Of a DNA stretch of 64,000 bases, positions 34,319 to 56,412 are shown piece after piece. Within the stretch, counting starts at the first letter, position 1. Each line of letters begins with the position of its first letter. The position numbers were made by a program, and so were the translations under genes. Source of the DNA: Chryseobacterium sp. Leaf394 (lineage in GTDB: Bacteria; Bacteroidota; Bacteroidia; Flavobacteriales; Weeksellaceae); contig NZ_LMQH01000011.1 in the NCBI RefSeq assembly GCF_001424105.1, positions 1,732,256 through 1,796,255 of the forward strand, in the 5' to 3' direction. The notes under the pieces are model-generated. The model searched no databases. It worked only from the letters and a program-made list of their open reading frames with translations, and had not been told where the DNA came from.

Positions 34319-34340
34319 AAATTAGTTGTGATTTTTTATA

Positions 34341-34874
34341 TTATATTATTTTTACAGTTCGTTTTCTGATATCGACTTCCGCTTTAAAGCATATCTTATC
34401 CTGATTTTGAGGATCAAAGATGTCTACGGTAAAAATTTCGGAATTTCCTCTTTGCCTCACCATTTTTACAATTTCATCAATCGGAAATTTACACTTTCCC
34501 AATTGTTGCCTGAAAGCTTCAGATGAAATTAAGATATCCATTATATCAATTTCTTTCTGCTGAAAATTCCGTAAGTCTTCTTCATATCTGTTTTTCCAAT
34601 CCTTACCATATTTTTGTTCAAGCGAAAGTTCAGTTTTATTATTTTCGGTTCTGACGCTATCTATCAATTCTTCTGTGACAACACATCCTGCGACAGCAAT
34701 TCTTCTTATATTCCACTTTTCATCTACACTTTCTACAATATGCCTATTACTGATGTCAGGTAATCCATACGATAAAAATACGAACCCGCTATTTTTTGAC
34801 GGATTTACATCTTTATCTTTTTTACCGCATGAAAACAGTACAAAGAACAACAGTAGGATTGAAAATATTTTCAA
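34341..34874 (-). CDS. Lipoprotein encoded within the glycogen operon
   Basis: A 177-residue protein with a lipoprotein signal peptide: hydrophobic stretch ILLLFFVLFSC with lipobox Cys16 (FSC-G), then a GKKDKD linker. The mature part is charged, contains two further cysteines (CVVT and CKFP) and has no recognised domain. It begins 3 bp after the glgA stop and ends 22 bp before glgC, so it is surely co-transcribed with cytoplasmic glycogen enzymes although it is exported. The reason for this linkage is unknown. Confidence 0.8.
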   Translation of the reverse strand: MKIFSILLLFFVLFSCGKKDKDVNPSKNSGFVFLSYGLPDISNRHIVESVDEKWNIRRIAVAGCVVTEELIDSVRTENNKTELSLEQKYGKDWKNRYEEDLRNFQQKEIDIMDILISSEAFRQQLGKCKFPIDEIVKMVRQRGNSEIFTVDIFDPQNQDKICFKAEVDIRKRTVKII

Positions 34875-34877
34875 AGT

Positions 34878-36284: not shown

Positions 36285-36287
36285 TTA

Positions 36288-38240
36288 TTATTTTTTGTTT
36301 TTTAGTTTAGATTTAGTTTTTTTCGGAACAGTTATTTTAGATTGTCTCAAAACCACTCCCGAAAGTGCCGGAAGATTGATGCTTATTGTGTTTGTTTTAT
36401 TTTTCCATTCTTCCTGATCTTCACTGAAGATATTGGCGATCACGCCGCTTCCTCCATATTTTTCATCGTCAGAATTAAAAATAACTTCCCATTTTGAATT
36501 TTTATCTACTCCAACTTTATAATCAATAACTCTTGGTGTAAGATTCAGAATTGTCATTAAAATATCATCCTCTTTTTTGCCCTTCCGTAAATAAATCAGA
36601 ACAGAATTATCGGTATCATCGGCTTCCACCCATTCAAAACCATAAGGATTAAATTGATTTTCATAAAGTGCCGTTTCATTTTTGTAAAGATGATTCAAAT
36701 CTTTTACAGCTTCCTTCAAACCGGCATGCACAGGATATTCCAGAAGATGCCAGTCTAAACTCTGTTTAAAATTCCACTCGCTCGTCTGCCCGAATTCATC
36801 GCCCATGAAGAGTAATTTTGCTCCTGGATGTGTAAACATGTAGACATACAAAGCTCTGAGATTGGCAAATTTTTGCCATTCATCGCCAAACATTTTATAA
36901 ATAAGACTGGCCTTACCATGTACCACTTCGTCGTGGGACAAAGGCATCATATAATTTTCGTTGTACATGTACATCGAAGCAAAAGTCAGTTTGTGATGTA
37001 AATGTTTCCGGTTGATAGGATCTTCTTTAAAATATTTCAGCGTGTCATGCATCCAGCCCATCATCCATTTCATTCCAAAACCTACTCCACCATCGTGTAC
37101 AGGCTTCGTCAGCATCGGAAAATCTGAACTTTCTTCAGCAATGGTTATGATTGAATCACCAAATTCCTTATAAACAGCAGTATTAAACTCCTGCAGGAAA
37201 GTTTTAGCTTCAAGATTTACATTAGTTCCATAAATATTGGGTTCCCATTCGCCTTCATTTCTTGAATAATCGAGATGAAGCATCGATGTTACAGCATCTA
37301 CACGCAATCCGTCAGCATGATAACGGTCGAGCCAAAACATGGCATTGGAAATCAGAAAAGATTTAACTTCATTTCGTCCGTAATTAAAAATATAGGATTT
37401 CCAGTCCGGATGAAATCCCTTCCTTGGGTCTTCGTGTTCATACAAGTAAGAGCCGTCGAATTTGTGCAAACCATTGGCATCGCCGGGAAAATGGGACGGA
37501 ACCCAATCGAGGATGACACCAATATTATTTTTGTGAAGTTCATTGATTAAAAACATCAGATCCTGCGGAGAGCCAAAACGTGATGTTGCAGCAAAAAATC
37601 CTGTAATCTGATAGCCCCAGCTTGGATCATAAGGATATTCCATCACGGGCATAAATTCTACGTGGGTAAAACCCATTTCAAGGATATATGGAACTAATTT
37701 TTGGGCAATATCCCTGTAGTTTAAAAACTGTTTTGGATTTTCTCCGTCACGAAGCCACGAACCGATGTGCATTTCGTAGACGGAAAGAGGAGCATTAAGG
37801 CTGTTGTTTTTCCAGCGGTTCTGCATCCAGTCTGTATCATCCCAGTCGTAATAAGTTGTAGAAATAAGCGATGCAGCCTGAAGATTCTGTTCCCAGCTGA
37901 GTGCGTAAGGATCGCTTTTCTCCAAAATTTCCCCTTCTTTAGTTTCAATGGCGTATTTATAAAGAGTTCCCCACGGCAAATCAGGAATAAACCCTTCCCA
38001 AATACCGGATTCATCCCATCTTGGCGAAAGGACGGCCTGAGCGGGATTCCAGTTACTAAAATTACCAATTACTGAAACTTTGGCAGCAAAAGGAGCCCAA
38101 ACTGAAAAATAAACGCCTTCCACGCCATCTTTATTTACTGAATGAGCGCCGAATTTATCATACAGTTTATAGTGTTTACCTTCTTTAAAAAGATAAATAT
38201 CATGCTCGGTAAAAAGTGAATAGTTTTGTACAGACTTCAT
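36288..38240 (-). CDS. glgB: 1,4-alpha-glucan branching enzyme
   Basis: GH13 enzyme forming alpha-1,6 branches in glycogen. The 650-residue protein has an N-terminal CBM48 (about 25-125, GVYFSVWAPFAAKVSVIGNFSNWNP) and a (beta/alpha)8 catalytic domain. Conserved regions are DWVPSHFP, DGLRVDAVTSML (nucleophile Asp), IAEESSDFP (acid/base Glu) and LSHDEVVHG. A C-terminal beta domain ends in a Lys-rich tail. It is the first gene of the glycogen operon, divergent from the CBM48-esterase gene across a 295-bp spacer. Confidence 0.97.
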   Translation of the reverse strand: MKSVQNYSLFTEHDIYLFKEGKHYKLYDKFGAHSVNKDGVEGVYFSVWAPFAAKVSVIGNFSNWNPAQAVLSPRWDESGIWEGFIPDLPWGTLYKYAIETKEGEILEKSDPYALSWEQNLQAASLISTTYYDWDDTDWMQNRWKNNSLNAPLSVYEMHIGSWLRDGENPKQFLNYRDIAQKLVPYILEMGFTHVEFMPVMEYPYDPSWGYQITGFFAATSRFGSPQDLMFLINELHKNNIGVILDWVPSHFPGDANGLHKFDGSYLYEHEDPRKGFHPDWKSYIFNYGRNEVKSFLISNAMFWLDRYHADGLRVDAVTSMLHLDYSRNEGEWEPNIYGTNVNLEAKTFLQEFNTAVYKEFGDSIITIAEESSDFPMLTKPVHDGGVGFGMKWMMGWMHDTLKYFKEDPINRKHLHHKLTFASMYMYNENYMMPLSHDEVVHGKASLIYKMFGDEWQKFANLRALYVYMFTHPGAKLLFMGDEFGQTSEWNFKQSLDWHLLEYPVHAGLKEAVKDLNHLYKNETALYENQFNPYGFEWVEADDTDNSVLIYLRKGKKEDDILMTILNLTPRVIDYKVGVDKNSKWEVIFNSDDEKYGGSGVIANIFSEDQEEWKNKTNTISINLPALSGVVLRQSKITVPKKTKSKLKNKK

Positions 38241-38535: not shown

Positions 38536-39645
38536 ATGATATTTAATTTAAAGACACAGGAAAATGATGACAGACCGATTTACATTACTGGTAACTTCAA
38601 CAGCTGGAATCCTAAAGATCCAAAATTCAGGCTTTGGAAAAAAGAGCCACAGCATTCAACAATAGAGATTAACGACAGTCTTTTACCCGACATTATAGAA
38701 TACAAATTTACAAAAGGCGGATGGGAAAATGTGGAACTGGACGAATACGCCAACATCACTCCAAACCGGAGAATTGAAAAAAGCAGACAAAACAGTGAAG
38801 ACGTGGTAAGCAAGTGGCGTTACAACTGGGGACCTTTTAAAAAAGAACTTTATCCCATTGCCGAAATCATCTCTGAAGAATTTTACATCCCACAGCTCGA
38901 CAGACACCGAAAAGTCTGGGCTTTGCTTCCGCACGACTATTATTCTACAGAAAAAAGCTACCCTGTACTCTACCTTCAGGATGCCCAAAATCTCTTTAAC
39001 GAAGGGAGTGCCTACGGAAACTGGGAAATCGACAAAAAACTTTCTGTACTCTCGGAATACGGCAGAGGCGATGTGATTGTTGTTGCCATTGAACATGGCA
39101 GTGAAGACCGCATCAAAGAATATATTTTTGATAATGACAGTGTTGCCAATGGCTCGGAAGGGAAAAAATACATCCGTTTTATAACCGACACCTTAAAACC
39201 TTATGTCGATGCTCATTACCGCACAAAAAAAGACCGTGACAATACAGGAATCGGCGGAAGTTCACTGGGCGGACTCATCAGTATTTACAGTGGGTTTCTG
39301 TATCCCGAAGTTTACTCCAAACTTTTGATCTTTTCTCCAAGTCTTTGGATTGAACCTAATAATAATTTTCCGATGATGAATTTCAGGGTTCCTTTTAAAA
39401 CTAAAATTTATCTGTACGGCGGCGAAAAAGAAGGTTCAAAAATGGTCAACAGAATCAATGTTTTTGAGCAGTATCTGAAACTTTGGGAGAAGAAAAATCT
39501 TTTTGACTTTGAATTTAAAACCAACATCAATCCGGACGGCGAGCACAAAGAATTTTACTGGTCGCAGGAATTTCCGCGTGCGATAGAATGGTTATTTTAC
39601 AACAATACAGAAAATCCGGTGGAAGTAACTCCACATCAGGATTAA
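38536..39645 (+). CDS. CBM48-linked esterase (alpha/beta hydrolase)
   Basis: A 369-residue cytoplasmic protein without a signal peptide. Residues 1-95 look like a glycogen-binding CBM48/AMPK-type domain (RPIYITGNFNSWNP, the same NFNSWNP core as in GlgB here). Residues about 110-360 form a putative-esterase (PF00756-like) domain. Its nucleophile elbow is GSSLG with Ser243, and the likely acid and His lie near the C-terminus (NPDGEHKEFYW). A CBM48-CE1 layout is known from secreted carbohydrate esterases; here the protein is internal. It sits back-to-back with the glycogen operon and 13 bp ahead of the M17 peptidase gene. Confidence 0.82.
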   Translation: MIFNLKTQENDDRPIYITGNFNSWNPKDPKFRLWKKEPQHSTIEINDSLLPDIIEYKFTKGGWENVELDEYANITPNRRIEKSRQNSEDVVSKWRYNWGPFKKELYPIAEIISEEFYIPQLDRHRKVWALLPHDYYSTEKSYPVLYLQDAQNLFNEGSAYGNWEIDKKLSVLSEYGRGDVIVVAIEHGSEDRIKEYIFDNDSVANGSEGKKYIRFITDTLKPYVDAHYRTKKDRDNTGIGGSSLGGLISIYSGFLYPEVYSKLLIFSPSLWIEPNNNFPMMNFRVPFKTKIYLYGGEKEGSKMVNRINVFEQYLKLWEKKNLFDFEFKTNINPDGEHKEFYWSQEFPRAIEWLFYNNTENPVEVTPHQD

Positions 39646-39658
39646 AAATCTAAATAAA

Positions 39659-41074
39659 ATGAAACTGATTAACAAAAAAAATAAAAAATACACACAGATT
39701 CTTCAGCTATTCAATGAAGATCAGTGGCAGGAGAGCTCAAAAAATTTTAATAAAAATATCAGTCTGCTGTTTTCAGGGAAAAAGAATGAAGTTCACATTC
39801 AGACTGATGATGAGAGCATTATTTTTTTCATCGGTTTGGGCAAGACGGATTCAGCCAATTTTGAATTCCAACAGGTCGGACAAAAATTTTCTCAGACTCA
39901 AAAAGAGAAAATACAGCCTGTTCCCACACAGATTATTTGCGAAAGTATCACTGAAAAACAATTTGAAGAGTTTTTCAAAGGGCTTTACTTAGGTACGTAC
40001 ACCTATAATTTCGACAAATCTCACACGTTTTGGAATGAAAGCACTGAGATTCATTTTGAAAACTTCAGTCAGAAGAAACTGGATCAGATCAAAAAGAATA
40101 CAAATGCCCTCTGCGAAGGCCAGTTCGCCTGTATGGAATGGTTAAATAAACCGGCCAATCATAAAAAAACAGACATTTTAAGTTCTTCTTTAAAAGATCT
40201 TTCTAAAAAATATGATTTTAAATACACCGTTTTTAACAGAAAGAAATGCGAAGAGCTTGGTCTGGGAGCATATCTGGCAGTCAACCAGGGAAGTGAGCAG
40301 GACGCTGCGTTTACCATTTTAGAATATAAAACTAAGGTGAAAAATGCCAAAACCATCGGTCTTGTCGGCAAATGTGTAACCTTTGATACGGGCGGAATTT
40401 CAATTAAAGCTTCAGATAACATGCATTATATGAAATCTGATATGGGTGGCGCTACAGCCGTTATCGGAGCATTGATTTACGCCGCAGAAAAAGAAATTCC
40501 TGTTAACATCATTGCTGTTTTGCCAATCACGGATAACGCTGTATCTGAAAATGCCTATTTACCAAGTGATGTCATCAAAGCCTACAACGGAAAAACAATC
40601 GAAGTTCTCAATACAGATGCGGAAGGCAGGATGATTCTGGCTGATTCACTCTCCTACCTCGCAAAAAATTATAAAACTGATGTGCTGATTGACCTTGCGA
40701 CGCTTACCGGAAGCAGCGTGAGAATGTTTGGAGATACCTGTGGAGCGATGTTTTCAAACAATGATAGATTAAAGGATTTACTTCTGAAAACCGGTGATCA
40801 GACCAACCAGAGGCTTTGGAATTTACCACTATGGGATGTATGGAAAGATGATTTCAAATCTGATGTTGCTGATGTGAAAAACATTTCAATGAAGCCCATC
40901 GGAGACTGTATTGTTGCCGCAAAATTTCTGGAAGAATTTATTGAAGGTCATCCCAATTGGGCTCATCTGGATATTGCCGGCGTAGCCTTTGGAAATACGG
41001 GATATTCAAAAGAAAAGGCAGCAACTGGATATGGTGTTCAGTTATTAGCCCAATTAATTGAAAATTATCACTAA
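39659..41074 (+). CDS. Leucyl aminopeptidase family protein (M17)
   Basis: Cytosolic two-metal aminopeptidase of 471 residues. The C-terminal catalytic domain has all signatures: VGKCVTFDTGGISIK with metal/catalytic Lys and Asp, MKSDMGGATAVIGA, and NTDAEGRMILADSLSYL with the metal-binding Asp/Glu and Arg. The N-terminal domain is divergent. It follows the esterase by 13 bp and is separated from the ligase genes by 140 bp. Within this locus it could trim peptides from polymer or ligase products, which is inference from position; M17 enzymes also act in general peptide turnover. Confidence 0.92.
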   Translation: MKLINKKNKKYTQILQLFNEDQWQESSKNFNKNISLLFSGKKNEVHIQTDDESIIFFIGLGKTDSANFEFQQVGQKFSQTQKEKIQPVPTQIICESITEKQFEEFFKGLYLGTYTYNFDKSHTFWNESTEIHFENFSQKKLDQIKKNTNALCEGQFACMEWLNKPANHKKTDILSSSLKDLSKKYDFKYTVFNRKKCEELGLGAYLAVNQGSEQDAAFTILEYKTKVKNAKTIGLVGKCVTFDTGGISIKASDNMHYMKSDMGGATAVIGALIYAAEKEIPVNIIAVLPITDNAVSENAYLPSDVIKAYNGKTIEVLNTDAEGRMILADSLSYLAKNYKTDVLIDLATLTGSSVRMFGDTCGAMFSNNDRLKDLLLKTGDQTNQRLWNLPLWDVWKDDFKSDVADVKNISMKPIGDCIVAAKFLEEFIEGHPNWAHLDIAGVAFGNTGYSKEKAATGYGVQLLAQLIENYH

Positions 41075-41214
41075 AAATTAGTTTTTTAGAAAAAATATCC
41101 CTATACTTGATAAGAAATTTACAAAATCATATCAGTTGGGGATTTTTATTAAAACATCCTGAATAATTATTTGGTTTTGCTTTTAATAATTAACCTAAAA
41201 CTCAAAAACACTAT

Positions 41215-42426
41215 ATGGAGCAGAAAACTATTGTTTGTATTTCCTGTTACTACAAAGGCTATGATTTTATGGAGGAGATGCAGAATCTTGGAAACAGGGT
41301 CATCCTCATTACCTCAGAAAATCTCAAAGAAAAAAACTGGCCCTGGCATGCGATAAACGAAGTTTTCTATATGCCCGAAATTAAGCCTTCGGTCTGGGAT
41401 CTCGAGCATTTGGTACAGGGATTTTCTCACCTAATGAAAACCCGAAAAGTAGATGCAGTAATTGCTCTCGATGATTACGATGTTGAAAAAGCTGCCTTGG
41501 TACGTGAAACCTTCAGAATTCCCGGAATGGGACAGACCACGCACCGCTATTTCAGAGATAAACTTGCGATGAGACAAAAGGCAAAAAATTCAGGGATCAA
41601 TGTTCCCGAGTTCACTGCTGTTTTCAATGATGCTGAAGTCGCTGAATTTGCTAAGAATGTTCCTGCCCCATGGGTTTTAAAACCAAGATCTGAAGCTTCA
41701 GCAAGTGGAATAAAAAAATTGAAATCTCAAGAAGAACTCTGGCAGGCTCTCGAAAATTTAGGCGACGAGAGGCATCTTTTCCTTTTGGAGAGCTTTAAGC
41801 CTGGTGATGTTTATCACGTAGACAGCCTTACCTTCAATGCCAAAACTATTTTTACATCATCATCCAAATATCTGGCCCCACCAATGCAGGTTTCGCATGA
41901 AGGCGGAGTCTTCAGAACGCGTACTTTAGGACGTTCTACTGCAGAGTTTAAAGCTCTGGAGAAAGCCAATGTACAGGTTCTTTCCAATTTCGGACTTCAA
42001 AACGGGGCAACGCATACAGAATTTATCCGTGGAAAAGAGGATGGAAAGTGGTATTTTCTTGAAACCTCATCACGTGTTGGCGGAGCACACATTCCTGATC
42101 TTGTGGAAGCATCCAGCGGAATCAATATCTGGAGAGAATGGGCAAAGATTGAAGATGCACTTTTGAAAGGTTTAGATTATTCCATTTCAAAACCTACAGG
42201 ATATTACGCCGGCCTCATCATCGCATTAATCAAAGAAAAACATCCGGATTACAAATATTTCGAGTCGGAAGAAACCGTGAAATTTTTACCAATAGATTAT
42301 CACATCGGTATTGTTTACAAGTCTTCAAAATCTGATCTTGTACAGACGAGGCTGGACGAAACGGCAGTGAAGATTCACGAAGATATGCTGAGTATTATTC
42401 CGCCAAAAGACAAACCGACTTCTTAG
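41215..42426 (+). CDS. ATP-grasp ligase (first of the series)
   Basis: A 403-residue carboxylate-amine ligase-like enzyme. It has an N-terminal preATP-grasp Rossmann part (TIVCISCYYKGYDFMEEM), a DKLAMRQKAKNSGINVPEF linker typical of ATP-grasp proteins, and the nucleotide-binding strand PWVLKPRSEASASGIKKL. The metal-binding FLETSSRVGGAHIPDLVEASSGIN resembles the D/E...N motif of biotin-carboxylase-like and dipeptide-forming (BacD-like) ligases. It would activate a carboxylate as acyl phosphate and join it to an amine. The substrates are unknown. It leads the run of four tightly spaced plus-strand genes to 45311. Confidence 0.88.
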   Translation: MEQKTIVCISCYYKGYDFMEEMQNLGNRVILITSENLKEKNWPWHAINEVFYMPEIKPSVWDLEHLVQGFSHLMKTRKVDAVIALDDYDVEKAALVRETFRIPGMGQTTHRYFRDKLAMRQKAKNSGINVPEFTAVFNDAEVAEFAKNVPAPWVLKPRSEASASGIKKLKSQEELWQALENLGDERHLFLLESFKPGDVYHVDSLTFNAKTIFTSSSKYLAPPMQVSHEGGVFRTRTLGRSTAEFKALEKANVQVLSNFGLQNGATHTEFIRGKEDGKWYFLETSSRVGGAHIPDLVEASSGINIWREWAKIEDALLKGLDYSISKPTGYYAGLIIALIKEKHPDYKYFESEETVKFLPIDYHIGIVYKSSKSDLVQTRLDETAVKIHEDMLSIIPPKDKPTS

Positions 42427-42456
42427 ATTTTATTTAATTTTCAAACATTAAAACTT

Positions 42457-43170
42457 ATGCCGCAAATCACGCATACAGATTACTATTCACATATATTAGG
42501 AACAAGCCTTAAATTAGAAATTACAGGACATTTTGGTTACCCAATCATTATGTTTCCCACATCACAGGGGCAATACACTCAAAACCATGATTTCCATCTT
42601 AACGGAAGTATTAACTGGTTTATAGAACAGGGAAAAGTAAAACTTTATAACATCCAGACCATTGACGGGTGGAGTTTTTATGACAACAATATTTCGCCAC
42701 GCCAGAGAATCAAAAATTACGAATTGTATGTACAGTTTCTTTTAAAAGAATTTGTGCCTTATGTTCAGAAAATTCATCAAACGCATCGTGTAGCCGTTGC
42801 CGGAGCAAGTTTTGGAGGTTATCACGCCGCTAATTTTGCATTCAGATTTCCGGATCTGGTTTCGCATCTTTTCTGTCTGTCAGGAGCTTTCAGCATCAGA
42901 AACTTTATGGACGGATACAGTGATGATTTGGTATTCTACAACTGTCCTAGAGAATTTGTCCGCACAGATGAAGCTTGGAAATACAAACACATGCACATTG
43001 TCTTAAGCACTTCAGATGAAGACATTTGCAAAGACAAAAACATAGAAATGGCAGAAATATTAAGTTCAAAAGGCATCGATTTCTGGTATGATGAAAGAAA
43101 ATGGATCAATCACGACTGGCCGCTTTGGCGAATGGTTTTCCCTACATTTATAGGGCGTTTCTTCTCTTAA
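42457..43170 (+). CDS. Esterase-like alpha/beta hydrolase (COG4947 type)
   Basis: A 237-residue cytoplasmic hydrolase of the esterase/lipase superfamily group that regularly accompanies ATP-grasp genes. Nucleophile elbow GASFGG with Ser118; the family region YPIIMFPTSQGQYTQNHDFHL near the N-terminus; a late HDWPLWRM segment that probably carries the catalytic His. It lies between two ATP-grasp genes (gaps of 30 and 46 bp), so an ester or thioester-type intermediate or an acyl-transfer/hydrolysis step in the same pathway is inferred. No lipid-type lid or signal peptide. Confidence 0.85.
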   Translation: MPQITHTDYYSHILGTSLKLEITGHFGYPIIMFPTSQGQYTQNHDFHLNGSINWFIEQGKVKLYNIQTIDGWSFYDNNISPRQRIKNYELYVQFLLKEFVPYVQKIHQTHRVAVAGASFGGYHAANFAFRFPDLVSHLFCLSGAFSIRNFMDGYSDDLVFYNCPREFVRTDEAWKYKHMHIVLSTSDEDICKDKNIEMAEILSSKGIDFWYDERKWINHDWPLWRMVFPTFIGRFFS

Positions 43171-43216
43171 AATTTAATTTAAATCTAAACAATAAACACT
43201 CATTAAAACTATTATT

Positions 43217-44170
43217 ATGGCAAAAAAAGTAGGAATTCTTTTCGGTATGGAAGACACATTTCCGTGGGCATTCATCGATAAGGTAAACGAATTGGGAAAA
43301 GGAGACATCGTTGCAGAACCCGTAATGATCGATAAGCTTGAGCAGGGCGTCGATTACGGATACGCTGTTATCATCGACAGAATTTCTCAGGATGTTCCTT
43401 TCTACAGAGCTTATCTGAAAAACGCAGCTCTAAACGGAACGTATGTAATGAACAATCCTTTCTGGTGGAGCGCTGACGAAAAGTTTTTCAACAATGCACT
43501 GATGTCAAAATTGGGTATTCCGCTTCCTAAAACGGTTTTGCTTCCTTCTCATGAAAGACCGAGCAACACTTCTGAAACTTCATTCAGAAACCTGAAATTT
43601 CCTCATGACTGGGATTATATTTTTGATTACGTAGGATTTCCTGCCTACATGAAACCTCACGACGGTGGCGGATGGAAAAGCGTGTACAGAGTTGAAAGTC
43701 CGGAAGATCTTTGGGATAAATTATCAGAAACTGAGCAACTGGTGATGATGGTACAGGAAGAAATTGTATTTGACGATTACTACAGAGTATACTGTCTTGG
43801 TAAAAAGCACGTACACATCATGCCTTACGAGCCAAGAAATGAGCATCATTTAAGATATGCAACCACTCATCAGACTTCAGGGGCAAAACTTAAAAAGCTT
43901 TTGAAAACGATTCACGATTACACTATTAAAATGAATGAAGCTTTAGGTTACGATTTCAACACTGTAGAATTTGCAGTGAGAGACGGAATTCCTTATGCTA
44001 TTGATTTCTGTAACCCTGCACCGGATGCTGACAAAAATTCAGTTGGAGAAGAAAACTTCAAATGGATTGTGGAGAATGCAGCAAAATTTGCGATTGAAAA
44101 AGCCAAAGAATATGTTCCCGGAAAAGCAAATATTTCATGGGGAACTTTTGTGAAGGACTCTGCGAAATAA
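43217..44170 (+). CDS. RimK-like ATP-grasp ligase (second of the series)
   Basis: A 317-residue ATP-grasp enzyme. The nucleotide-binding part includes GFPAYMKPHDGGGWKSVYRV (Gly-rich loop after the binding Lys) and MVQEEIVFDDYYRVYCLG. The C-terminal metal-binding segment is FAVRDGIPYAIDFCNPAPD with Asp and Asn. An N-terminal domain of about 110 residues shows GILFGMEDTFPWAFIDKVN. Unlike RimK itself, nothing suggests ribosomal protein S6 modification. The gene begins 46 bp after the esterase and ends 22 bp before the GCS2 gene, so all belong to one operon. Substrates unknown. Confidence 0.86.
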   Translation: MAKKVGILFGMEDTFPWAFIDKVNELGKGDIVAEPVMIDKLEQGVDYGYAVIIDRISQDVPFYRAYLKNAALNGTYVMNNPFWWSADEKFFNNALMSKLGIPLPKTVLLPSHERPSNTSETSFRNLKFPHDWDYIFDYVGFPAYMKPHDGGGWKSVYRVESPEDLWDKLSETEQLVMMVQEEIVFDDYYRVYCLGKKHVHIMPYEPRNEHHLRYATTHQTSGAKLKKLLKTIHDYTIKMNEALGYDFNTVEFAVRDGIPYAIDFCNPAPDADKNSVGEENFKWIVENAAKFAIEKAKEYVPGKANISWGTFVKDSAK

Positions 44171-44192
44171 CTAACCTGAAAAAACACAAAGT

Positions 44193-45311
44193 ATGCACAC
44201 ATTCACCATAGGAATTGAAGAGGAATATCAAATCATAGACGTAGAAAGCAGAGATCTTATTTCTCACGTATCCAAAATTATTGAGGGCGGCAAGGCAGTT
44301 TTAAGTGAAAATTTAAAACATGAAATGCACGAATCCATGATTGAAATGGAGACAGGAATCTGCCAGAATATACAGCAGGCAAGAGAAGAGCTCACGAACC
44401 TCCGTAAACACCTTATTGCAACAGCCCACGAGCAGGGACTCCGTGTCTCGGGAGGAGGAACACATCCTTTTTCAAACTGGGAGCATAACACCATTACCAA
44501 TGGCGAGCGTTACAATAAGATCGTTGACGATATGGGCGACGTGGCAAGAGGAAACCTCATCTTTGGTCTGCACGTACACATCGGAATTCCCAACCGTGAG
44601 GAGGGCGTAAGAATACAGAATGTAATGCGTTATTTTCTGCCCCACGTTTATGCTTTATCCACCAATTCACCTTTCTGGATTGGGAGAAATACCGGATTTA
44701 AATCTTACAGACAGGAAATTTTTGTAAAGTTTCCGAGAACGGGAATTCCAAGTTATTTTAATTCACTTTCTGAATTTGACAGCTACGTTGATCTTCTGGT
44801 AAAAACCGGAACGATTGACAATGCCAAAAAAATATGGTGGGATCTCCGTGTGCATCCTTTTTACCCGACTATTGAGTTCAGAATTTGCGATATGCCGATG
44901 AGAATAGACGAGACCGTCTGTCTTGCGGCAATTATGCAGTGTCTCGTGGCAAAAATCTATAAACTTCATCAGCAGAATTTAAGTTTCAGAAGCTACAGAA
45001 GATTACTTTTAAATGAAAACAAATGGCGTGCTTCCAAAGACGGAATTGATGCCCATCTAATTGACTTCGGAAAGGAAGAATCTGTTCCATACCGTGATCT
45101 TTTGAAAGAACTTCTGGAGTTTATTGACGATGTTGTGGATGAATTAGGTTGCCGAAAAGAAGTAGAATATGCATGGCAGATTATTGAAAACGGAACCGGT
45201 GCAGACCGCCAGCTGAAAGTACTTCAGGAAACCGGAGATTTGAAGAAAGTAGTTGATTACATGATATCTGAAACAGAATTTGGTATTACCCACAGCGAGG
45301 CTGCTTTATAA
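44193..45311 (+). CDS. Carboxylate-amine ligase, YbdK/GCS2 family
   Basis: A glutamine-synthetase-fold enzyme related to glutamate-cysteine ligase type 2. The 372-residue length is standard for YbdK. It opens with TIGIEEEYQIID (Glu-rich metal site) and has FGLHVHIGIPNREEGVRI (conserved HxHxG). STNSPFWIGRNTGFKSYR and WWDLRVHPFYPTIEFRICDMP, with the substrate-binding Arg and metal Glu, follow. E. coli YbdK has weak gamma-glutamylcysteine ligase activity; here the neighbours suggest a different amide-forming step. It starts 22 bp after the second ATP-grasp gene. Confidence 0.92.
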   Translation: MHTFTIGIEEEYQIIDVESRDLISHVSKIIEGGKAVLSENLKHEMHESMIEMETGICQNIQQAREELTNLRKHLIATAHEQGLRVSGGGTHPFSNWEHNTITNGERYNKIVDDMGDVARGNLIFGLHVHIGIPNREEGVRIQNVMRYFLPHVYALSTNSPFWIGRNTGFKSYRQEIFVKFPRTGIPSYFNSLSEFDSYVDLLVKTGTIDNAKKIWWDLRVHPFYPTIEFRICDMPMRIDETVCLAAIMQCLVAKIYKLHQQNLSFRSYRRLLLNENKWRASKDGIDAHLIDFGKEESVPYRDLLKELLEFIDDVVDELGCRKEVEYAWQIIENGTGADRQLKVLQETGDLKKVVDYMISETEFGITHSEAAL

Positions 45312-45319
45312 AAATTTTA

Positions 45320-45327
45320 TAACTTTG
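45320..45327 (+). promoter_or_regulatory. Internal -7 box before the amidotransferase gene
   Basis: TAACTTTG lies in the 32-bp gap after the GCS2 gene, 16 nt before the ATG at 45344. A -33 element is not evident, so an internal promoter is only possible. Confidence 0.35.
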
Positions 45328-45343
45328 TTCAAATTATGAAGTT

Positions 45344-46171
45344 ATGAAAGAGATAAGAATTGCGCTGCTGGATATGAATAACAACAAGAAAAATCAGGGT
45401 TTTAAGAACATCCGTGAGATTTCTGAAAGTTTTAAAGCAAATTCTGAAGAACAAATAAGCATTACCACTTTTGATATAAGACATCTGAACGAGATGCCTA
45501 AACTGGAAGATTTCGATATTTTCATTTCCTCCGGAGGTCCCGGTAATCCGCACAGAGAAGGTCATGAATGGGAAGAAAAATTCGCCAATCTTTTAGATGG
45601 GGTTTTTAATCACAATCAAAATTCAGCAGATAAAAAATATATGTTTTTAATCTGTCATTCGTTTCAGATTGCGAGCATTCATTGGGAACTTGGGAATATT
45701 TGTGAGAGAAAATCATACTCGTTTGGTGTAATGCCAGTTCACAAATCTGAGGAAGGAGAGCATGATTTTTTACTTAAAAATCTACCGGATCCTTTCTATG
45801 CAGTGGATTCCAGAGCATACCAATTTATAGAACCTAATCAGCAAAGATTTGATGAGTTGGGAATGAAAATCATGGCGCTGGAAAAGTTCCGTCCGCACAT
45901 CAATCTGGAAAGAGCTGTAATGGCAATTCGCTTTTCAGAGGAGATTTTCGGGACACAGTTTCATCCTGAAGCCAATCCTGAAGGAATGCTTGAAAATCTG
46001 AAAGATGAAGAGAACAAACTGGCGATGATTGAAAATTACGGCATCGAAAAATATCTTGAAACGCTGGACAGAATGGACGATGAGGATAAAATAAAACTGA
46101 CTCAGGCACAGATTCTGCCAAGGTTTCTGGAAGATGCAAAACAAAAAATTCTACAGCCGGAAACTGTTTAG
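45344..46171 (+). CDS. Class I glutamine amidotransferase-like protein
   Basis: A 275-residue stand-alone GAT1 domain of the GMP-synthase-like group. The catalytic triad appears complete: Cys104 in FLICHSFQ, and His207 and Glu209 in GTQFHPEANPEG. The oxyanion region is SSGGPGNPHREGHEW. The nucleophile elbow has Ser where most members have Gly (C-x-G), which may change glutamine use. It could deliver ammonia to a ligase in this operon or hydrolyse gamma-glutamyl bonds as in PuuD-like enzymes. The remaining 60 residues are helical and charged. A terminator hairpin follows. Confidence 0.88.
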   Translation: MKEIRIALLDMNNNKKNQGFKNIREISESFKANSEEQISITTFDIRHLNEMPKLEDFDIFISSGGPGNPHREGHEWEEKFANLLDGVFNHNQNSADKKYMFLICHSFQIASIHWELGNICERKSYSFGVMPVHKSEEGEHDFLLKNLPDPFYAVDSRAYQFIEPNQQRFDELGMKIMALEKFRPHINLERAVMAIRFSEEIFGTQFHPEANPEGMLENLKDEENKLAMIENYGIEKYLETLDRMDDEDKIKLTQAQILPRFLEDAKQKILQPETV

Positions 46172-46183
46172 AAATACAGCATG

Positions 46184-46210
46184 AATCGGGCAAAACGCCC
46201 GATTTTTTAA
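46184..46210 (+). terminator. Terminator or attenuator after the amidotransferase gene
   Basis: A perfect 8-bp GC-rich stem (46184-46191 with 46197-46204), a 5-nt loop and a T-tract. The next plus-strand gene begins only 19 nt later, so read-through is probably needed for its expression unless another start exists. Confidence 0.85.
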
Positions 46211-46228
46211 TTTTAAAAAAAATCAGGG

Positions 46229-47413
46229 ATGATTCCAAAATACAGACAAAAATTTAATTCAGAATTCTCTGAGGAGAAGTATTTAAAAATAAATTCCATC
46301 TTAGCAGAAAAAAGCGGAATTAAAACAGGATTTAAACTTTCTGAAAGTCCGATTTTTCTGACTGCAGATTTCAAAACAAAACTTACAGACGCCAGCGAAA
46401 GTATTTTAGACCAAATTATCGCCATGTCTCCGGAAGCTCTACAGAAAGCCATTCCTGAAAACTGTAAAGTTCCGAATGATACTTTAAAACCTCATTTTTT
46501 CACCATCGATTTCGGAATCTGTAAAAATTCAGATGGTGAAGTTGAACCTCAGCTGATTGAGCTTCAGGCATTTCCATCTCTGTATGCTTTTCAAAAGGTG
46601 TATGAGGAAGCATTCTGTGAAGTCTACCCTTTTCTCAATGATCTGAAAAGTAAGATGAGCGATGAAGAATTTTTGTCGCAGATGAAAAACCTGATTGTAG
46701 GAAACGAAAATCCTGAAAATGTAATTTTACTCGAAATTTATCCCGAAAGACAGAAAACAGAAGTTGATTTTAGGCTGACAGAAAATTTTCTGGGAATAAA
46801 AACAGTTTGTCTAACCAAAATTAAAAAAGAAGGCAAAAAACTTTTTTATGATAACGACGGTCAGTTGACAGAAATCAAAAGAATTTACAACCGCGTCATT
46901 TTTGACGAACTCGACAGAATTCCGGATCTGAAAACTGAATTTGATTTCAGAGAAGAGGTTGATGTAACCTGGGTGACGCATCCCAACTGGTTTTTTAAGA
47001 TTTCAAAATATCTTTTGCCTTTATTAAAGCATAAATTTGTTCCGAAGAGTTATTTTTTAAATGAATTTCCTGAGGATGAAAATCTGAATGATTTTGTTTT
47101 GAAACCACTTTTCTCCTTTGCAGGAAGCGGTGTCAATCTTTATCCAACAACGGAAATTACAGATAAAATCGAAGATAAGGAAAACTATATTTTACAGAGA
47201 AAAGTAGAATACGCTCCGGTTTTTGAAGATATCAACGGAGATTTTTCACGTGCTGAAATCCGGCTTTTGTATGTTTGGCAGGAAGATGATGAGCGTCCGG
47301 TTTTGGTTCAGTACCTTGTAAGAATGACCAAAGCAGAAATGGTGAATGTAGATTTCAATAAAAAAGACGCCATCTGGATTGGCAGTTCACATGCGTTTTT
47401 TGGCGAGGAATAA
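46229..47413 (+). CDS. Unassigned protein, probably ATP-grasp-like
   Basis: A 394-residue cytoplasmic protein. I do not recognise the family with certainty. The C-terminal third looks like an ATP-grasp fold: DFVLKPLFSFAGSGVNLYPTTE resembles the Lys-containing strand and Gly-rich loop. It is followed by ENYILQRKVEYAPVF (hinge/adenine region) and SRAEIRLLYVWQEDDERPVLVQYLVRM as the late acidic strand. The pattern QLIELQAFPSLYAFQ occurs earlier (about 110). It lies at the end of the ligase series and is convergent with cphA, sharing a terminator. A third C-N ligase of the pathway is the best guess. Confidence 0.7.
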   Translation: MIPKYRQKFNSEFSEEKYLKINSILAEKSGIKTGFKLSESPIFLTADFKTKLTDASESILDQIIAMSPEALQKAIPENCKVPNDTLKPHFFTIDFGICKNSDGEVEPQLIELQAFPSLYAFQKVYEEAFCEVYPFLNDLKSKMSDEEFLSQMKNLIVGNENPENVILLEIYPERQKTEVDFRLTENFLGIKTVCLTKIKKEGKKLFYDNDGQLTEIKRIYNRVIFDELDRIPDLKTEFDFREEVDVTWVTHPNWFFKISKYLLPLLKHKFVPKSYFLNEFPEDENLNDFVLKPLFSFAGSGVNLYPTTEITDKIEDKENYILQRKVEYAPVFEDINGDFSRAEIRLLYVWQEDDERPVLVQYLVRMTKAEMVNVDFNKKDAIWIGSSHAFFGEE

Positions 47414-47415: not shown

Positions 47416-47450
47416 AAAAATCGGGTGAACCACTGGCTCACCCGATTTTT
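47416..47450. terminator. Bidirectional terminator between the ligase series and cphA
   Basis: A perfect 13-bp stem (47416-47428 with 47438-47450), A-rich on one side and T-rich on the other. It serves both convergent transcripts. Confidence 0.93.
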
Positions 47451-47469: not shown

Positions 47470-50100
47470 TTAAAGTCCTTTATTTTCTTCAAGCAATTCT
47501 CTCGCCTGATATTCCTGTACAAGATCAATTGCATTAGAAATAACGTCGCTCAAAGCTGTGATGAATGTGCCGTCTTCAGCCATTCCCATCGCATGTTTCA
47601 AAGCCTCAATTTCTTTTGGAATCGTTTCATAACTCACATCTCTGCCCGATTCCTGCATTCCTTCAATGATTAAATTGTTGATTTCCTCTTCAGTTCGGCC
47701 ACGCAGATGTTTTTCGTTGCGGATGATGATGTGGTCAAACATTCTGCCGGCAATTTTTCCGCAAAGCTTGATATCTGCATCTCTCCTGTCGCCAACTCCT
47801 GAAATAATTCCTATTTTCTTGGTAGCTTCGACATTTTTAAGGTAATCTTCAATCGCCTCGTAACCCGCCGGGTTGTGTGCAAAATCGATTAAGACCTTAA
47901 AGTTTTTAAAATTAAATACATTCAGTCTTCCCGGAGTAAGCTGAGCACTTGGAATAAAAGTTCTGAGGGAATTGGAAATATCTTCAATCGCAAATCCGTA
48001 GAGATAGCACGCCAAACTCGCAGCAAGTACGTTTTCAATCATAAATTTAGCTTTACCTTCCATCGTAATCGGGAAATCTTTAGCTTTACCAATCCTGATT
48101 TTCCAGTCGCCTTTTTTGATGGTAACGAAGCCTTCTTCATAAACGCAGGTCGTTTTTCCTTCCTTCGCATATTTTTTAATGAACGGATTGTTTTCGTCCA
48201 TACTGAAAAGTGCAATATTGCTGTCGAGATCGTTGATGATTCTCATAGAATATTCGTCGTCGGCATTCATGACGCTCCAACCGTTCTTCTTTACACTGTC
48301 GAGAATCACGCGTTTTACTTTCGTAAGATCTTTAAGATTATGAATATCGTTGATGCCTAAATGATCTTCCTTAATGTTGGTTAAAACCCCAATATCACAG
48401 TTGGAAAAACCTAAACCTGATCTTAAAATTCCGCCTCTGGCAGTTTCAAGAACAGCAAATTCTACCGTTGGATCTTTTAAGATAAATTCTGCGGAAATCG
48501 GACCTGTAGTATCGCCTTTCGTCAGCATCGTATTTTGAATGTAAATACCGTCCGATGTGGTAAATCCTACTCTGTAACCGTTATTTTTTACAATATGAGA
48601 AATCAATCTGGTGGTTGTAGTTTTCCCGTTGGTTCCTGTTACGGCAATAATTGGAATGGTAAATGGTTTTCCTGGAGGATAAAGCATATCAACCACTGGC
48701 GCAGCAACGTTTCTCGGCAAACCTTCGCTCGGTGCAAGGTGCATTCTGAAGCCCGGAGCAGCGTTTACTTCAATGATAGCAGCACCACTTTCCTTCAAAG
48801 GTTGGGTAAGGTTTTCAGCCATAATATCAATTCCGCAAACATCAAGACCTATGATTTTCGAAATTCTTTCAGCCATGGTTATATTTTCCGGATGCACCAT
48901 ATCGGTAACATCAATAGAGGTTCCGCCGGTTGAAAGATTGGCAGTTGATTTAAGGTAAACCACTTCACCTTTTTGAGGAACTGTATCTAAAGTATAATTG
49001 AGTTTATCTAAAAGCTCGGTCGTATCTTTGTCCACTGTGATTTCAGTCAGTACATTTTCGTGACCGTAGCCTCTTCTCGGATCCTCATTTTCCTTATCAA
49101 TCAGTTGCTGAAGATTTAATTCTCCGTCACCAATCACGTGAGCGGGAACTCTTCTTGCCGCAGCAATCATTTTGTTGTTGATTACCAAAACTCTGAAATC
49201 ATATCCGGTAATATATTTTTCAACAATTACTTTTTTTGAATAGGTCTGGGCGTGTTCCAAACCGATTTTGGCAGCTTCCCAATCATTGACATTAATTGAA
49301 GAGCCTTTACCGTGATTTCCATCCAAAGGTTTGATTACGATAGGATAACCGATTTTTCTTACCACCTCATCCAATCCTTCTTCATCAACGATCAGTTCGC
49401 CGATCGGCACCGGAATTGCGGCGTCGTGAAGCATTCTCTTGGTCAGATCTTTATTACAGGCAATGTCTACACCAATACAGCTTGTATTTCCGGTAATCGT
49501 TGCCTGAAACCGCTGCTGATTTACACCATATCCTAACTGAACCAAAGAATTTGTACCCAATCTGATCCATGGAATTTTTCTTGAAACCGCTTCTTCTACA
49601 ATACTTCCTGTGGAAGGACCTAGACGTACCTTTTCACGGATTTCCTTCAGTTTCTGAATGCATCCTGCAATATCATACTCTCTTCCTTCAACGAGTGCTT
49701 CCACGATTTTTACAGACTCTTCTGCTGCAAAAATTCCTGCGTTCTCTTCGAGATAATTAAAAACTACATTGTAAACTCCGGGCGTTCTGGTTTCTCTGGT
49801 TCTTCCAAAACCAACATCCATACCTGCTAAAGTCTGAATTTCGAGTGCGATATGTTCGATAACATGACCCAACCAGGTTCCTTCCTGTACTCTGTGAAAA
49901 AAACCGCCTTCTACGCCTTCAGAACACCGGTGAGATAAAAGTGAAGGCAGCAATTTCTCGATACGCTCTCTGAATCCATCAATCTTATTGGTAGGATAAT
50001 TTTCCATTTCCTGAAGATCCAATCTCATCTGGATAAGCTTTTTTCTTCTTATGCTCCAAATGTTTGGACCTCTTAGCGCCTGTATTTTTTCAATGTTCAT
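47470..50100 (-). CDS. cphA: Cyanophycin synthetase (CphA1 type)
   Basis: Non-ribosomal polymerase making a poly-Asp backbone with Arg side chains. The 876-residue length and domain order are those of CphA1. The N-domain (1 to about 160) includes TWLGHVIEHIALEIQ, where an HxxEH pattern has been linked to a primer-producing peptidase site. The ATP-grasp domain (about 210-475) has VIKPLDGNHGKGSS and the family motif EVNAAPGFRMH. The Mur-ligase-like domain carries P-loop GTNGKTTTT (about 488-497) and LVTNIKEDHLG-like DHLG. Both ATP sites are present, so it is not CphA2. It has its own promoter and is divergent from cphB. Confidence 0.95.
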   Translation of the reverse strand: MNIEKIQALRGPNIWSIRRKKLIQMRLDLQEMENYPTNKIDGFRERIEKLLPSLLSHRCSEGVEGGFFHRVQEGTWLGHVIEHIALEIQTLAGMDVGFGRTRETRTPGVYNVVFNYLEENAGIFAAEESVKIVEALVEGREYDIAGCIQKLKEIREKVRLGPSTGSIVEEAVSRKIPWIRLGTNSLVQLGYGVNQQRFQATITGNTSCIGVDIACNKDLTKRMLHDAAIPVPIGELIVDEEGLDEVVRKIGYPIVIKPLDGNHGKGSSINVNDWEAAKIGLEHAQTYSKKVIVEKYITGYDFRVLVINNKMIAAARRVPAHVIGDGELNLQQLIDKENEDPRRGYGHENVLTEITVDKDTTELLDKLNYTLDTVPQKGEVVYLKSTANLSTGGTSIDVTDMVHPENITMAERISKIIGLDVCGIDIMAENLTQPLKESGAAIIEVNAAPGFRMHLAPSEGLPRNVAAPVVDMLYPPGKPFTIPIIAVTGTNGKTTTTRLISHIVKNNGYRVGFTTSDGIYIQNTMLTKGDTTGPISAEFILKDPTVEFAVLETARGGILRSGLGFSNCDIGVLTNIKEDHLGINDIHNLKDLTKVKRVILDSVKKNGWSVMNADDEYSMRIINDLDSNIALFSMDENNPFIKKYAKEGKTTCVYEEGFVTIKKGDWKIRIGKAKDFPITMEGKAKFMIENVLAASLACYLYGFAIEDISNSLRTFIPSAQLTPGRLNVFNFKNFKVLIDFAHNPAGYEAIEDYLKNVEATKKIGIISGVGDRRDADIKLCGKIAGRMFDHIIIRNEKHLRGRTEEEINNLIIEGMQESGRDVSYETIPKEIEALKHAMGMAEDGTFITALSDVISNAIDLVQEYQARELLEENKGL

Positions 50101-50141
50101 ATAATGATGTAGAATTAATTGTCAATTTTTCGTTTTACACT

Positions 50142-50174
50142 CAAAGATAATGCAAAACATTAAAAGAATGCAAA
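50142..50174 (-). promoter_or_regulatory. Promoter of cphA
   Basis: Minus strand TTTG (50171-50174), a 21-nt spacer, TATCTTTG (50142-50149). The leader before the cphA ATG at 50100 is about 35 nt. Confidence 0.7.
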
Positions 50175-50281
50175 ATCAAATTAAATATTTCTTAATGTCT
50201 TTTTAAAATCGGTGAGCAATCTCCAATGGAAATCAATTCGTTAAATGTAGGTTTACATTTTATTAACCCACCAAATTTTTT

Positions 50282-50289
50282 TAATTTTG
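50282..50289 (+). promoter_or_regulatory. -7 box of cphB
   Basis: TAATTTTG ends 6 nt before the ATG at 50296, predicting a leaderless or near-leaderless mRNA. A TTG at 50287 in frame with the gene overlaps this box and is not a credible start. Confidence 0.55.
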
Positions 50290-50295
50290 CAAACT

Positions 50296-51180
50296 ATGAA
50301 ACCTGTGGGAAAACTAATTATTATCGGAGGAGCTGTAAATAAAGGCAGTTTCGCAGAAACGGAGTACGACCAGAATGTTGAAAAAAACCTTAATTTTTTT
50401 GAAAGAGGAATTTTAAGAAAAATCATTACAGAATCCAAACACAAGGAAAATTCTGTGATCGAAGTCATTACGACCGCTTCACAGATTCCAAAAATCGTAG
50501 GTGCAGAGTACAAAAAAGCGTTCGAATATCTCGGTGCAAAAAATGTAAATATTTTAGACATTCACAACCGTGAAGAAGCAAACTCGGATGCATTGGTAGC
50601 CAGAGCAAACGCTGCCGACGTGGTAATGTTTACAGGTGGAGATCAGCTTAGACTGACTTCAATTCTTGGCGGAACAAGATTTCATGATACTATTTTACTG
50701 AAATATCAGGAGCAGGATTTTATCTATTCCGGAACTTCGGCAGGTGCTGCGGCGGCTTCTGAAAACATGATTTATCAGGGAAGCAGTTCTGAAGCTTTGC
50801 TGAAAGGTGAAATTAAAACAACCCAAGGCTTAGGCTTAATCGACAATGTGATTGTTGACACCCATTTTGTTCAGAGAGGCAGAATCGGACGGCTTTTTCA
50901 GGCCGTAGTCAACAATCCGAGAACTTTGGGGATCGGTTTGGGTGAAGACACTGGACTTTTTATTCACAACGACGTGATGACAGCTGTGGGATCCGGACTT
51001 GTAATTTTAGTAGACGGCCGATTTATAAAAGATACCAATTTAACTAATATCAACCTAGGAGAACCTATTTCAATCGAAAATCTGACGGTTCATGTGATGT
51101 CGATGAATGACCACTATAATCTTACGACAAAGGAAATGACGATTGAGAATTCTCAGTTTAATCCTATTCCGCAAACGTAA
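50296..51180 (+). CDS. cphB: Cyanophycinase
   Basis: Serine exopeptidase (family S51) that degrades cyanophycin to beta-Asp-Arg dipeptides. The 294-residue protein has the nucleophile motif GTSAGAAAAS (Ser in SGTSAG), the upstream FTGGDQLRL segment and the conserved VDTHFVQRGRIGRL block that shapes the substrate pocket. There is no signal peptide, so it is intracellular like the cyanobacterial enzyme. Start placed at the ATG at 50296 because of the promoter position. It lies between cphA (divergent) and the isoaspartyl peptidase gene. Confidence 0.94.
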   Translation: MKPVGKLIIIGGAVNKGSFAETEYDQNVEKNLNFFERGILRKIITESKHKENSVIEVITTASQIPKIVGAEYKKAFEYLGAKNVNILDIHNREEANSDALVARANAADVVMFTGGDQLRLTSILGGTRFHDTILLKYQEQDFIYSGTSAGAAAASENMIYQGSSSEALLKGEIKTTQGLGLIDNVIVDTHFVQRGRIGRLFQAVVNNPRTLGIGLGEDTGLFIHNDVMTAVGSGLVILVDGRFIKDTNLTNINLGEPISIENLTVHVMSMNDHYNLTTKEMTIENSQFNPIPQT

Positions 51181-51277
51181 TTTATGAGCAATAGGTAATG
51201 AGCAATGGGTAGTCAGCAATAATCTGTGATTATTAATATACTTATTAACTCTGCTATTTATTCGGCGAATCGCTCGC

Positions 51278-51391
51278 AGCCCGGCCTGAGTGGAGCTCTT
51301 TTTGTTATTGCGTTTCTGTAAAAGTTCAATTCAGAAACCCAACCGAACGCAATAACAAAAAAGCGGGAACGGAGGACGGAAACAGCTGCCC
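51278..51391. repeat. Large imperfect hairpin, REP-like intergenic element
   Basis: A perfect 16-bp inverted repeat (51299-51314 with 51346-51361) with a second inner stem (tttctg at 51313-51318 with cagaaa at 51332-51337). It is flanked by GC-richer arms agcccggcctgagtgg (51278-51293) and gcgggaacggaggacgg (51363-51379). The arms stand out from the AT-rich surroundings. The arrangement looks like a dispersed palindromic repeat of Bacteroidota genomes, but no second copy lies in this window to confirm it. Confidence 0.65.
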
Positions 51392-51436
51392 AAATAAAAA
51401 ATCTCAGACTAAAATCCAAAAAATTTATATATTGTT

Positions 51437-52279
51437 ATGAAAATCATCATTCACGGAGGTTTTTTCTCTGAAAGCGACCAAAGTAACGAAGTAAAAGCTG
51501 CAAAACAGAATTCCTTAAAAAGCATTGCTGAAAAGGCTTATCAATATTTACTTAAAAATTCGGCGGTGGACACTGTGGCTTACGCAGTTTCTCTTCTCGA
51601 AGATGACGAACTTTTTAACGCCGGAATTGGCTCTCAAATTCAGAGTGACGGAATCATCAGAATGAGTGCTGCCCTGATGGATGGCGAAACGCAGAAAATG
51701 AGCGGTGTCATCAATATTCAGGATGTAAAAAACCCGATTTTCGTTGCGAAAGAACTGATGAAAGAAGACGACAGAGTTTTAGGCGGAAGTGGTGCGAAAA
51801 ACTATGCGAATGAACATGGATTTGATGATTTTTCCACTGAAATTCCACAAAGAAGAAAGGAATACGAAGCTAAACTTGCAAACGGCGGAAAAGGAACTGT
51901 AGGCTGCGTTGCCATAGACAAAAATGGAAAACTGGCTGTGGCCACTTCAACCGGAGGAAAAGGCTTTGAAATCCCTGGAAGAATTTCAGATTCTGCCACT
52001 GTTGCCGGAAATTATGCCAATGAATTTTGCGCTGTCAGCTGTACCGGAGTGGGCGAAGATATTGTAAGCAATGCCACTTCCGCGAAGATTGTGACAAGAG
52101 TTACAGACGGGATGACATTGCAGGAAGCGTTCAATAAAACCTTTACTGAACTGAAAACAATTGACGGTTTCGCCGGAGCCATTGCAATTGATAGAGACGG
52201 AAATATTTTTCATCAGGATTCTTATCCTAAAATGGTTTTTGCGAGTTTTGATGGAGAAAGTTTTGAGGTTTTTGAATAG
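51437..52279 (+). CDS. iaaA: Isoaspartyl peptidase / L-asparaginase (plant type)
   Basis: N-terminal-nucleophile hydrolase that splits isoaspartyl dipeptides such as beta-Asp-Arg. The 280-residue precursor cleaves itself before Thr154 in GKGTVGCVAID, giving alpha and beta chains. Substrate-binding motifs TGGKGFEIPGRISDS and GEDIVSNATSAKIV are present. The N-terminal IIHGGF is typical. It lacks a signal peptide. It follows cphB by 256 bp with a repeat element between, probably as its own unit. With CphA and CphB it completes a route from polymer to free Asp and Arg. Confidence 0.94.
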   Translation: MKIIIHGGFFSESDQSNEVKAAKQNSLKSIAEKAYQYLLKNSAVDTVAYAVSLLEDDELFNAGIGSQIQSDGIIRMSAALMDGETQKMSGVINIQDVKNPIFVAKELMKEDDRVLGGSGAKNYANEHGFDDFSTEIPQRRKEYEAKLANGGKGTVGCVAIDKNGKLAVATSTGGKGFEIPGRISDSATVAGNYANEFCAVSCTGVGEDIVSNATSAKIVTRVTDGMTLQEAFNKTFTELKTIDGFAGAIAIDRDGNIFHQDSYPKMVFASFDGESFEVFE

Positions 52280-54439: not shown

Positions 54440-54444
54440 TAAAT

Positions 54445-55116: not shown

Positions 55117-55122
55117 TCTATA

Positions 55123-55761: not shown

Positions 55762-55763
55762 TT

Positions 55764-56402: not shown

Positions 56403-56412
56403 AGACCAAATT

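Follow-up and report, generated by a model that had tools for sequence, protein, structure and literature searches.

A conserved gene set with four carboxylate-amine ligases in Bacteroidota and the small peptide amide it may make

Described relatives and the ligases of the locus

Stepwise amide assembly without a non-ribosomal peptide synthetase (NRPS) is known from the fungal E-64 pathway, which uses the ATP-grasp enzyme Cp1B together with an amide bond synthetase (PMC12568646, in its accessible part), and Escherichia coli YgiC and YjfC have been reported to be peptide-spermidine ligases (Pederick 2023, as referenced in the accessible part of PMC12568646). Ligases of the ATP-grasp and COOH-NH2 types encoded in linkage are the broad theme of the amidoligase neighbourhoods predicted by Iyer et al. 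2009 (from the accessible part of PMC4431377). Here we describe a set of six genes, g1 to g6, encoded in a stretch of 64,000 nucleotides of Chryseobacterium sp. Leaf394 (contig NZ_LMQH01000011.1, positions 1,732,256 to 1,796,255 of the forward strand; hereafter the window, to whose numbering all coordinates refer unless a contig is given). The component families are already known and the assembled system is apparently new: in the open-access literature we recognised no description of the set, of its co-inheritance or of the exchange of g6 for another ATP-grasp protein described below, the likeliest earlier source, Iyer et al. 2009, lying outside that search.

An earlier note, made from the sequence alone, had described six closely spaced plus-strand genes at 41215-47413 with three or more ligases among them. 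All six open reading frames (ORFs) are present there and intact, separated from g1 to g6 by 30, 46, 22, 32 and 57 bp. Several of them do encode carboxylate-amine ligases, as had been proposed, although the number is four and not three (g1, g3, g4 and g6), the fold of g6 having settled the count.

The first gene, g1 (41215..42426, plus strand, as are all six), encodes an ATP-grasp protein of the L-amino acid ligase type, which matches ATP-grasp_4 (PF13535, 1.4e-7) and is significantly similar to the solved L-amino acid ligases 4wd3 (the nearest, 1.5e-15), 3vot and 30vh. It also matches the model of the dapdiamide synthase DdaF (1.3e-6), but with 27 bits against a cut-off of 840, and the partner genes of DdaF are different. 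The product of g2 (42457..43170) is an alpha/beta esterase (PF00756, 9e-9); of 95 aligned sequences 92 retain Ser118 and 92 retain His219. That of g4 (44193..45311) belongs to the YbdK family (GCS2) of carboxylate-amine ligases, since it exceeds the cut-offs of both PRK13515 (540 bits, cut-off 371) and TIGR02050 (304.2 bits, cut-off 176.4) and matches the solved YbdK-type chains 1r8g (1.5e-50) and 1tt4 (5.2e-52). For g5 (45344..46171), a protein of the class-I glutamine amidotransferase (GAT1) fold (PF00117, 2e-9), the complete triad claimed for it was borne out, C104, H207 and E209 being kept in 90/90 aligned sequences, the window copy included.

The gene that we use as the marker of the system, g3 (43217..44170), had no Pfam match, and its match to the RimK family model TIGR00768 (1.1e-9) reached 38.1 bits, below the cut-off of 143.4. 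Its assignment therefore comes from a structure model (mean pLDDT 90.5), for which the best structural matches were D-Ala-D-Ala ligases (Z 13.8, 192 residues aligned, over residues 85-298), with RimK and LysX at about Z 12. A Foldseek search gave the same ATP-grasp ligase types, with TM scores of 0.39-0.51 and large root mean square deviations (rmsd). Residues 82-304 have a predicted Ddl/RimK-type fold, residues 1-81 being barely covered by the comparison. A C-terminal tail of 39-161 residues, rich in Lys, often also in Ala and Pro, and reminiscent of histone H1, was present in 29 of 109 g3 proteins (for example those of loci L034, L107, L133 and L155).

For g6 (46229..47413) the sequence match to PF03738 was also below cut-off (2e-4, 21.1 bits against 29.3), and the assignment again comes from a structure model (mean pLDDT 92.9). 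Over its whole length the model has the fold of GspS and the eukaryotic glutathione synthetases (Z 24.2-25.8, 328-346 residues aligned, 10-15% identity), the E. coli matches being YjfC (Z 25.8), YgiC (25.4) and GspS (24.8), with 343-345 residues aligned at an rmsd of 3.6-3.9 and 11-15% identity; Cp1B has the same fold (Z 22.2). In Cp1B alanine changes in an R-x-D...E-x-N motif abolished or weakened activity (PMC12568646, in its accessible part). When this motif is placed by order rather than by superposition, g6 keeps its acidic residues as D94 and E111 in 117/117 sequences, but differs from YgiC, YjfC and GspS in lacking the motif Arg and Asn, as well as in being encoded beside three other ligases and in having no second domain that we found. 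The genome of the window encodes elsewhere a true GSP_synth homologue of the YgiC/YjfC type (487.8 bits, G000:C12:405390-406478, L184), so that g6 is a distinct paralogue. The own-genome match to NspC, at 48 bits, is below its cut-off of 409, a result that concerns this one polyamine route, others not having been searched. The E-64 pathway resembles the locus in assembling its amide stepwise without an NRPS and differs from it in being fungal and, as far as the accessible part of the paper goes, in having no counterpart of g3, g4 or g5 (PMC12568646).

Co-inheritance, gene order and an apparent replacement of g6

One draw of 148 Bacteroidota genomes was searched with g6, g3, g5, g4, the circularly permuted ATP-grasp type 2 protein (PF14403) and the cyanophycin synthetase model, with thresholds that were set after inspection of the match lists. 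Two weak g3 matches (G007 and G087, ~165 bits), one weaker g4 match (G004, 238 bits) and 25 weaker matches to the PF14403 protein, including that of G137 at 290 bits, were removed before counting. On this basis g3 was present in 58 genomes, g4 in 51, g5 in 40 and g6 in 49, and nearly all of these coincided: g3 was found in 50/51 of the g4 genomes, 40/40 of the g5 genomes and 48/49 of the g6 genomes (Fisher p of 1e-29, 2e-22 and 1e-27, respectively, values that ignore shared ancestry). A single genome, G144, was the exception for both g4 and g6, each of which occurs there without g3. Members of the core are unlinked in several lineages, g6 lying apart from g3 for example, and yet still co-occur; in seven genomes of one family (f14) g5 is on another contig or far off. 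Linkage alone therefore does not explain the co-occurrence, and the core g3-g4-g5-g6 is a functional unit with near-obligate co-inheritance. In a plasmid collection neither g3 nor g6 had a match (E up to 1e-5 and 1e-2), whereas relatives of g4 occur in 72 plasmid records; of the three that were opened two were annotated, both without an annotated ATP-grasp neighbour, a setting different from that of g4.

Conservation of the genes together in related genomes, which the earlier note had set as the test of its proposal, was found in the best 80 of at least 580 g3-profile relatives in named genomes, a sample that is biased toward near relatives and in which several contigs are short. The order g2-g3-g4-g5-g6 on one strand occurs in 64 of these 80 loci, allowing for other ORFs in between, and the run from g1 to g6 in 22. 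Among loci drawn by g6 alone (49 loci in 48 genomes), g3 is nearby in 29, and in 13 the five core genes are all present and in order. When all fetched loci were taken together, the median distances between core genes ranged from 7.5 to 41 bp. As a separate observation, an amidohydrolase-3 cluster protein lies between g4 and g5 in locus L061, and in family f22 (L069-L079) 9 of 11 loci have g6 without g3 or g4 nearby, beside a protein of that same cluster.

The span originally given to the system holds for the core, but leaves out two upstream genes (38536-41074) that appear to be part of it. These encode Est (38536..39645, plus strand), a PF00756 esterase by Pfam scan (residues 120-300) whose N-terminal part, which had no Pfam match, resembles CBM48/CBM20, and LAP (39659..41074, plus strand), a metallopeptidase of the M17 leucyl aminopeptidase family (PF00883, 9.7e-106). 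LAP and g1 occur in that order in 26 of the 80 named loci, and the whole run Est-LAP-g1-g2-g3-g4-g5-g6 in 18. Outside this arrangement g1 is again found with LAP or Est beside the core in Polaribacter, Flavobacterium macrobrachii and Saprospiraceae, and in 45 of 129 loci g2 has an esterase from the Est clusters as its neighbour. The spacer between LAP and g1 (41075..41214) has a median length of 140 bp over 26 pairs; 12 of 21 such spacers, the window's own not among them, have a match to the consensus TAnnTTTG at a roughly constant position.

Ten of the g3 genomes are without g6, and all ten carry a homologue (>500 bits) of the circularly permuted ATP-grasp type 2 protein; the two that were scanned with Pfam were narrowly over the PF14403 cut-off (37.3 and 32.4 against 32 bits). 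By coordinates this protein is placed between g3 and g5 in 10/10, which was confirmed in the eight loci that were fetched. In these eight, g2 precedes g3 in four, g1 follows in two and another esterase (d3, one member of which is PF00756) follows g5 in six. At the threshold used no genome had both g6 and the PF14403 protein, G137 having g6 and the weaker relative mentioned above. Common descent of the two proteins was considered and set aside, as profile comparison gave a probability of 8.8%, too low for one family. With no homology shown, the apparent replacement of g6 by the PF14403 protein in these ten genomes looks like a non-orthologous one. The PF14403 protein keeps R134, D136, E148 and N150 in 8/8 sequences, by motif order an R-x-D...E-x-N pattern like that of Cp1B. 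The exchange offers a direct route to what the circularly permuted ATP-grasp family does at this position.

The proposed pathway and its alternatives

The identities of the genes, the folds of g3 and g6, the kept catalytic residues, the co-inheritance of g3 to g6 and what looks like an exchange of g6 for another protein are the observations from which a function can be proposed. The reading that we prefer, at somewhat less than even confidence, is a cytoplasmic pathway, conserved in Bacteroidota, by which a small peptide amide would be both made and recycled. Assembly of a small amide by successive ligations had already been suggested in the earlier note, and the ligase folds and the strong co-inheritance give that suggestion its backing. 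In such a pathway g1 would join two amino acids and/or g4 would add a glutamyl-type acid to an amine, and g3 would lengthen the product by one acid-amine ligation. The terminal carboxylate would be turned into an acyl phosphate and coupled to an amine or amino acid by g6, or in some lineages by the circularly permuted ATP-grasp protein. A gamma-linked or amide group might be freed again by g5, which might alternatively supply ammonia, and the esterases and the M17 aminopeptidase would trim the precursor or the product. Turnover seems to be built in, judging by the hydrolases that the set contains (g5, g2, Est and LAP) and by an M29-type peptidase cluster that two loci have between g4 and g6.

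Since YgiC and YjfC have been reported to join peptides to spermidine, an amine-capped peptide would be the most natural product of g6. A more specific and distinctly more speculative version is that the product might be an oligopeptide of the gamma-glutamyl type with an amine, perhaps a polyamine, as its end cap. As many as four stand-alone ligases would build it, the esterases, the GAT1-fold hydrolase and the aminopeptidase would remodel it, and the capping enzyme would have been swapped in some lineages. If the preferred reading is right, much of the phylum, in 58 of the 148 sampled genomes and in 93 of 98 in the window's genus, makes a small amide with an enzyme set that has no known product, and the four stand-alone ligases of the set could be of use as biocatalysts. 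So wide a distribution would suggest a housekeeping or stress metabolite more than a strain-specific natural product.

Several points weigh against a peptide amide made by this route. For every member we infer the substrates, the order and direction of the steps and the product. The two esterases are not accounted for by a purely amide product. By motif order, again not by superposition, g6 has no Arg at position 92 and has Gln in place of Asn at 113, each in 117/117 sequences, and coupling of polyamines may take place at the separate GSP_synth homologue. The phylum-wide counts cover g3, g4, g5, g6, the PF14403 protein and cphA, and not g1, g2, Est or LAP. Among the g6 genomes g4 is absent from two (G037 and G064) and g5 from 19 of 49, so not every step is universal.

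The grouping of g6 with the other genes in one operon is likewise weakened, as g5 and g6 are separated by a terminator-like hairpin with a T-run after it (46183..46205, plus strand). A similar hairpin, in which the stems have changed but remain complementary, is found in 12 of 25 relatives from the genus and its neighbours (L032, L033, L081-L104). All 12 belong to the genus, and the 13 without it include L033 and L087, which are also of the genus. Because the terminator scan as a whole did no better than chance (11 found, compared to 11.1 in shuffled sequences), the case for this hairpin rests on its recurrence. A single transcript across g5 and g6 is thus doubtful.

Among the alternatives, modification of a macromolecule, in which the RimK-like g3, together with g4 and g6, would attach amino acids or amines to a protein or some other polymer, to be taken off again by g5, the esterases and LAP, survives best, although we consider it unlikely. 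RimK and the tubulin tyrosine ligase-like enzymes modify proteins and both are among the structural matches, and the Lys-rich tail of some g3 proteins might serve to anchor the enzyme on a polyanion. However, g3 is structurally closest to the small-molecule ligases of the Ddl type, and no acceptor-like gene was seen in the core, a weaker objection since ORFs of <80 aa were unlisted and two flanking clusters of 110-115 aa are unidentified.

A mainly catabolic or salvage role, in which peptides or amides would be imported and broken down by the hydrolases while the ligases form short-lived glutamylated intermediates, has a precedent for such intermediates in the Puu pathway. It would fit the several hydrolases of the set, as well as some of its neighbours in other genomes. 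That a dedicated transporter is lacking is true of the window's own set, but not of one relative in which a sodium:solute symporter (PF00474) is fused to g6 (L048:7937-10540); in another genome a symporter homologue, identified by blast clustering, lies 18 bp before g6 (L058:10484-11869), and both cases hint at an imported substrate. Similarly, of the 17 members of a class-III aminotransferase cluster 13 lie no more than 193 bp after g6, mainly in Dyadobacter-type loci; the one member scanned was nearest to the acetylornithine type, below cut-off, and the position of these genes hints at a diamino or omega-amino acid. Nevertheless, four ATP-consuming ligases would exceed the needs of a salvage route, which makes this role rather improbable, even allowing for neighbour clusters that are only partly annotated and in which catabolic partners may have been missed.

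The window set lies next to genes for cyanophycin metabolism, and its ligases could conceivably act on cyanophycin or its dipeptides, altering or trimming them. Within the genus this association is strong, g3 and a close cphA being both present in 92 of 98 genomes, both absent from four and found alone in one each (p 7e-6), and in the phylum draw the association of g5 with cphA (p 0.003) is not explained away. However, a single event can delete adjacent genes jointly, and across the 148 genomes g3 and cphA are not significantly associated (p 0.11): g3 is present in 10 of the 17 cphA genomes, and 48 of the 58 g3 genomes have no cphA over the cut-off. Of the 80 named loci 11 have cphA close to the core, all of them Chryseobacterium or Halpernia. 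These figures tell against the storage-polymer role that the earlier note had also entertained, and we judge an accessory role in cyanophycin metabolism to be quite improbable. We have taken the adjacency as a sign of a shared genus-level storage island, not of the function of the ligase set.

The least probable alternative is a low-molecular-weight thiol or glutathione-like pathway beginning with g4, which would suit the membership of g4 in the gamma-glutamylcysteine ligase superfamily and the glutathione synthetase/GspS fold of g6, but the genome has BshC over cut-off (370.9 against 265.8 bits), so that bacillithiol is the expected thiol and a glutathione role less likely, and g4 reached 65 of the 249 bits that the cyanobacterial GshA model sets as its cut-off.

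Flanking genes

Downstream of g6, and convergent with it, lies the gene for the cyanophycin synthetase CphA1 (47470..50100, minus strand; TIGR02068, 1265.8 bits, cut-off 850), the two being separated by a hairpin with a T-run (47416..47450, minus strand). It is followed by genes for a cyanophycinase (50287..51180, plus strand; TIGR02069, 226.5 bits, cut-off 126.6) and for a member of the asparaginase-2/isoaspartyl-peptidase family (51437..52279, plus strand; PF01112, 2.1e-78), the three together occupying 47470-52279 as context outside the core. Genes for CphA1 and cyanophycinase are commonly clustered, and the isoaspartyl dipeptidases of Bacteroidota have been termed undiscovered (PMC10206079, in its accessible part). 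A second, diverged CphA-like protein (45-46% identity) is encoded elsewhere in four of the 98 genus genomes (G150, G165, G192 and G236).

Upstream of Est, at 33050-38240, are genes of the glycogen type, encoding a protein of the NTP_transferase/GlgC fold, one of the starch synthase type and, judged by sequence, a branching enzyme; the glycogen, ligase and cyanophycin genes may together form a storage island. Beyond the cyanophycin genes a Ter-type stress island (53867-60431) encodes in a row two TerD proteins, two VWA proteins, one VWA protein with TerY_C, a PP2C phosphatase and a kinase-like protein.

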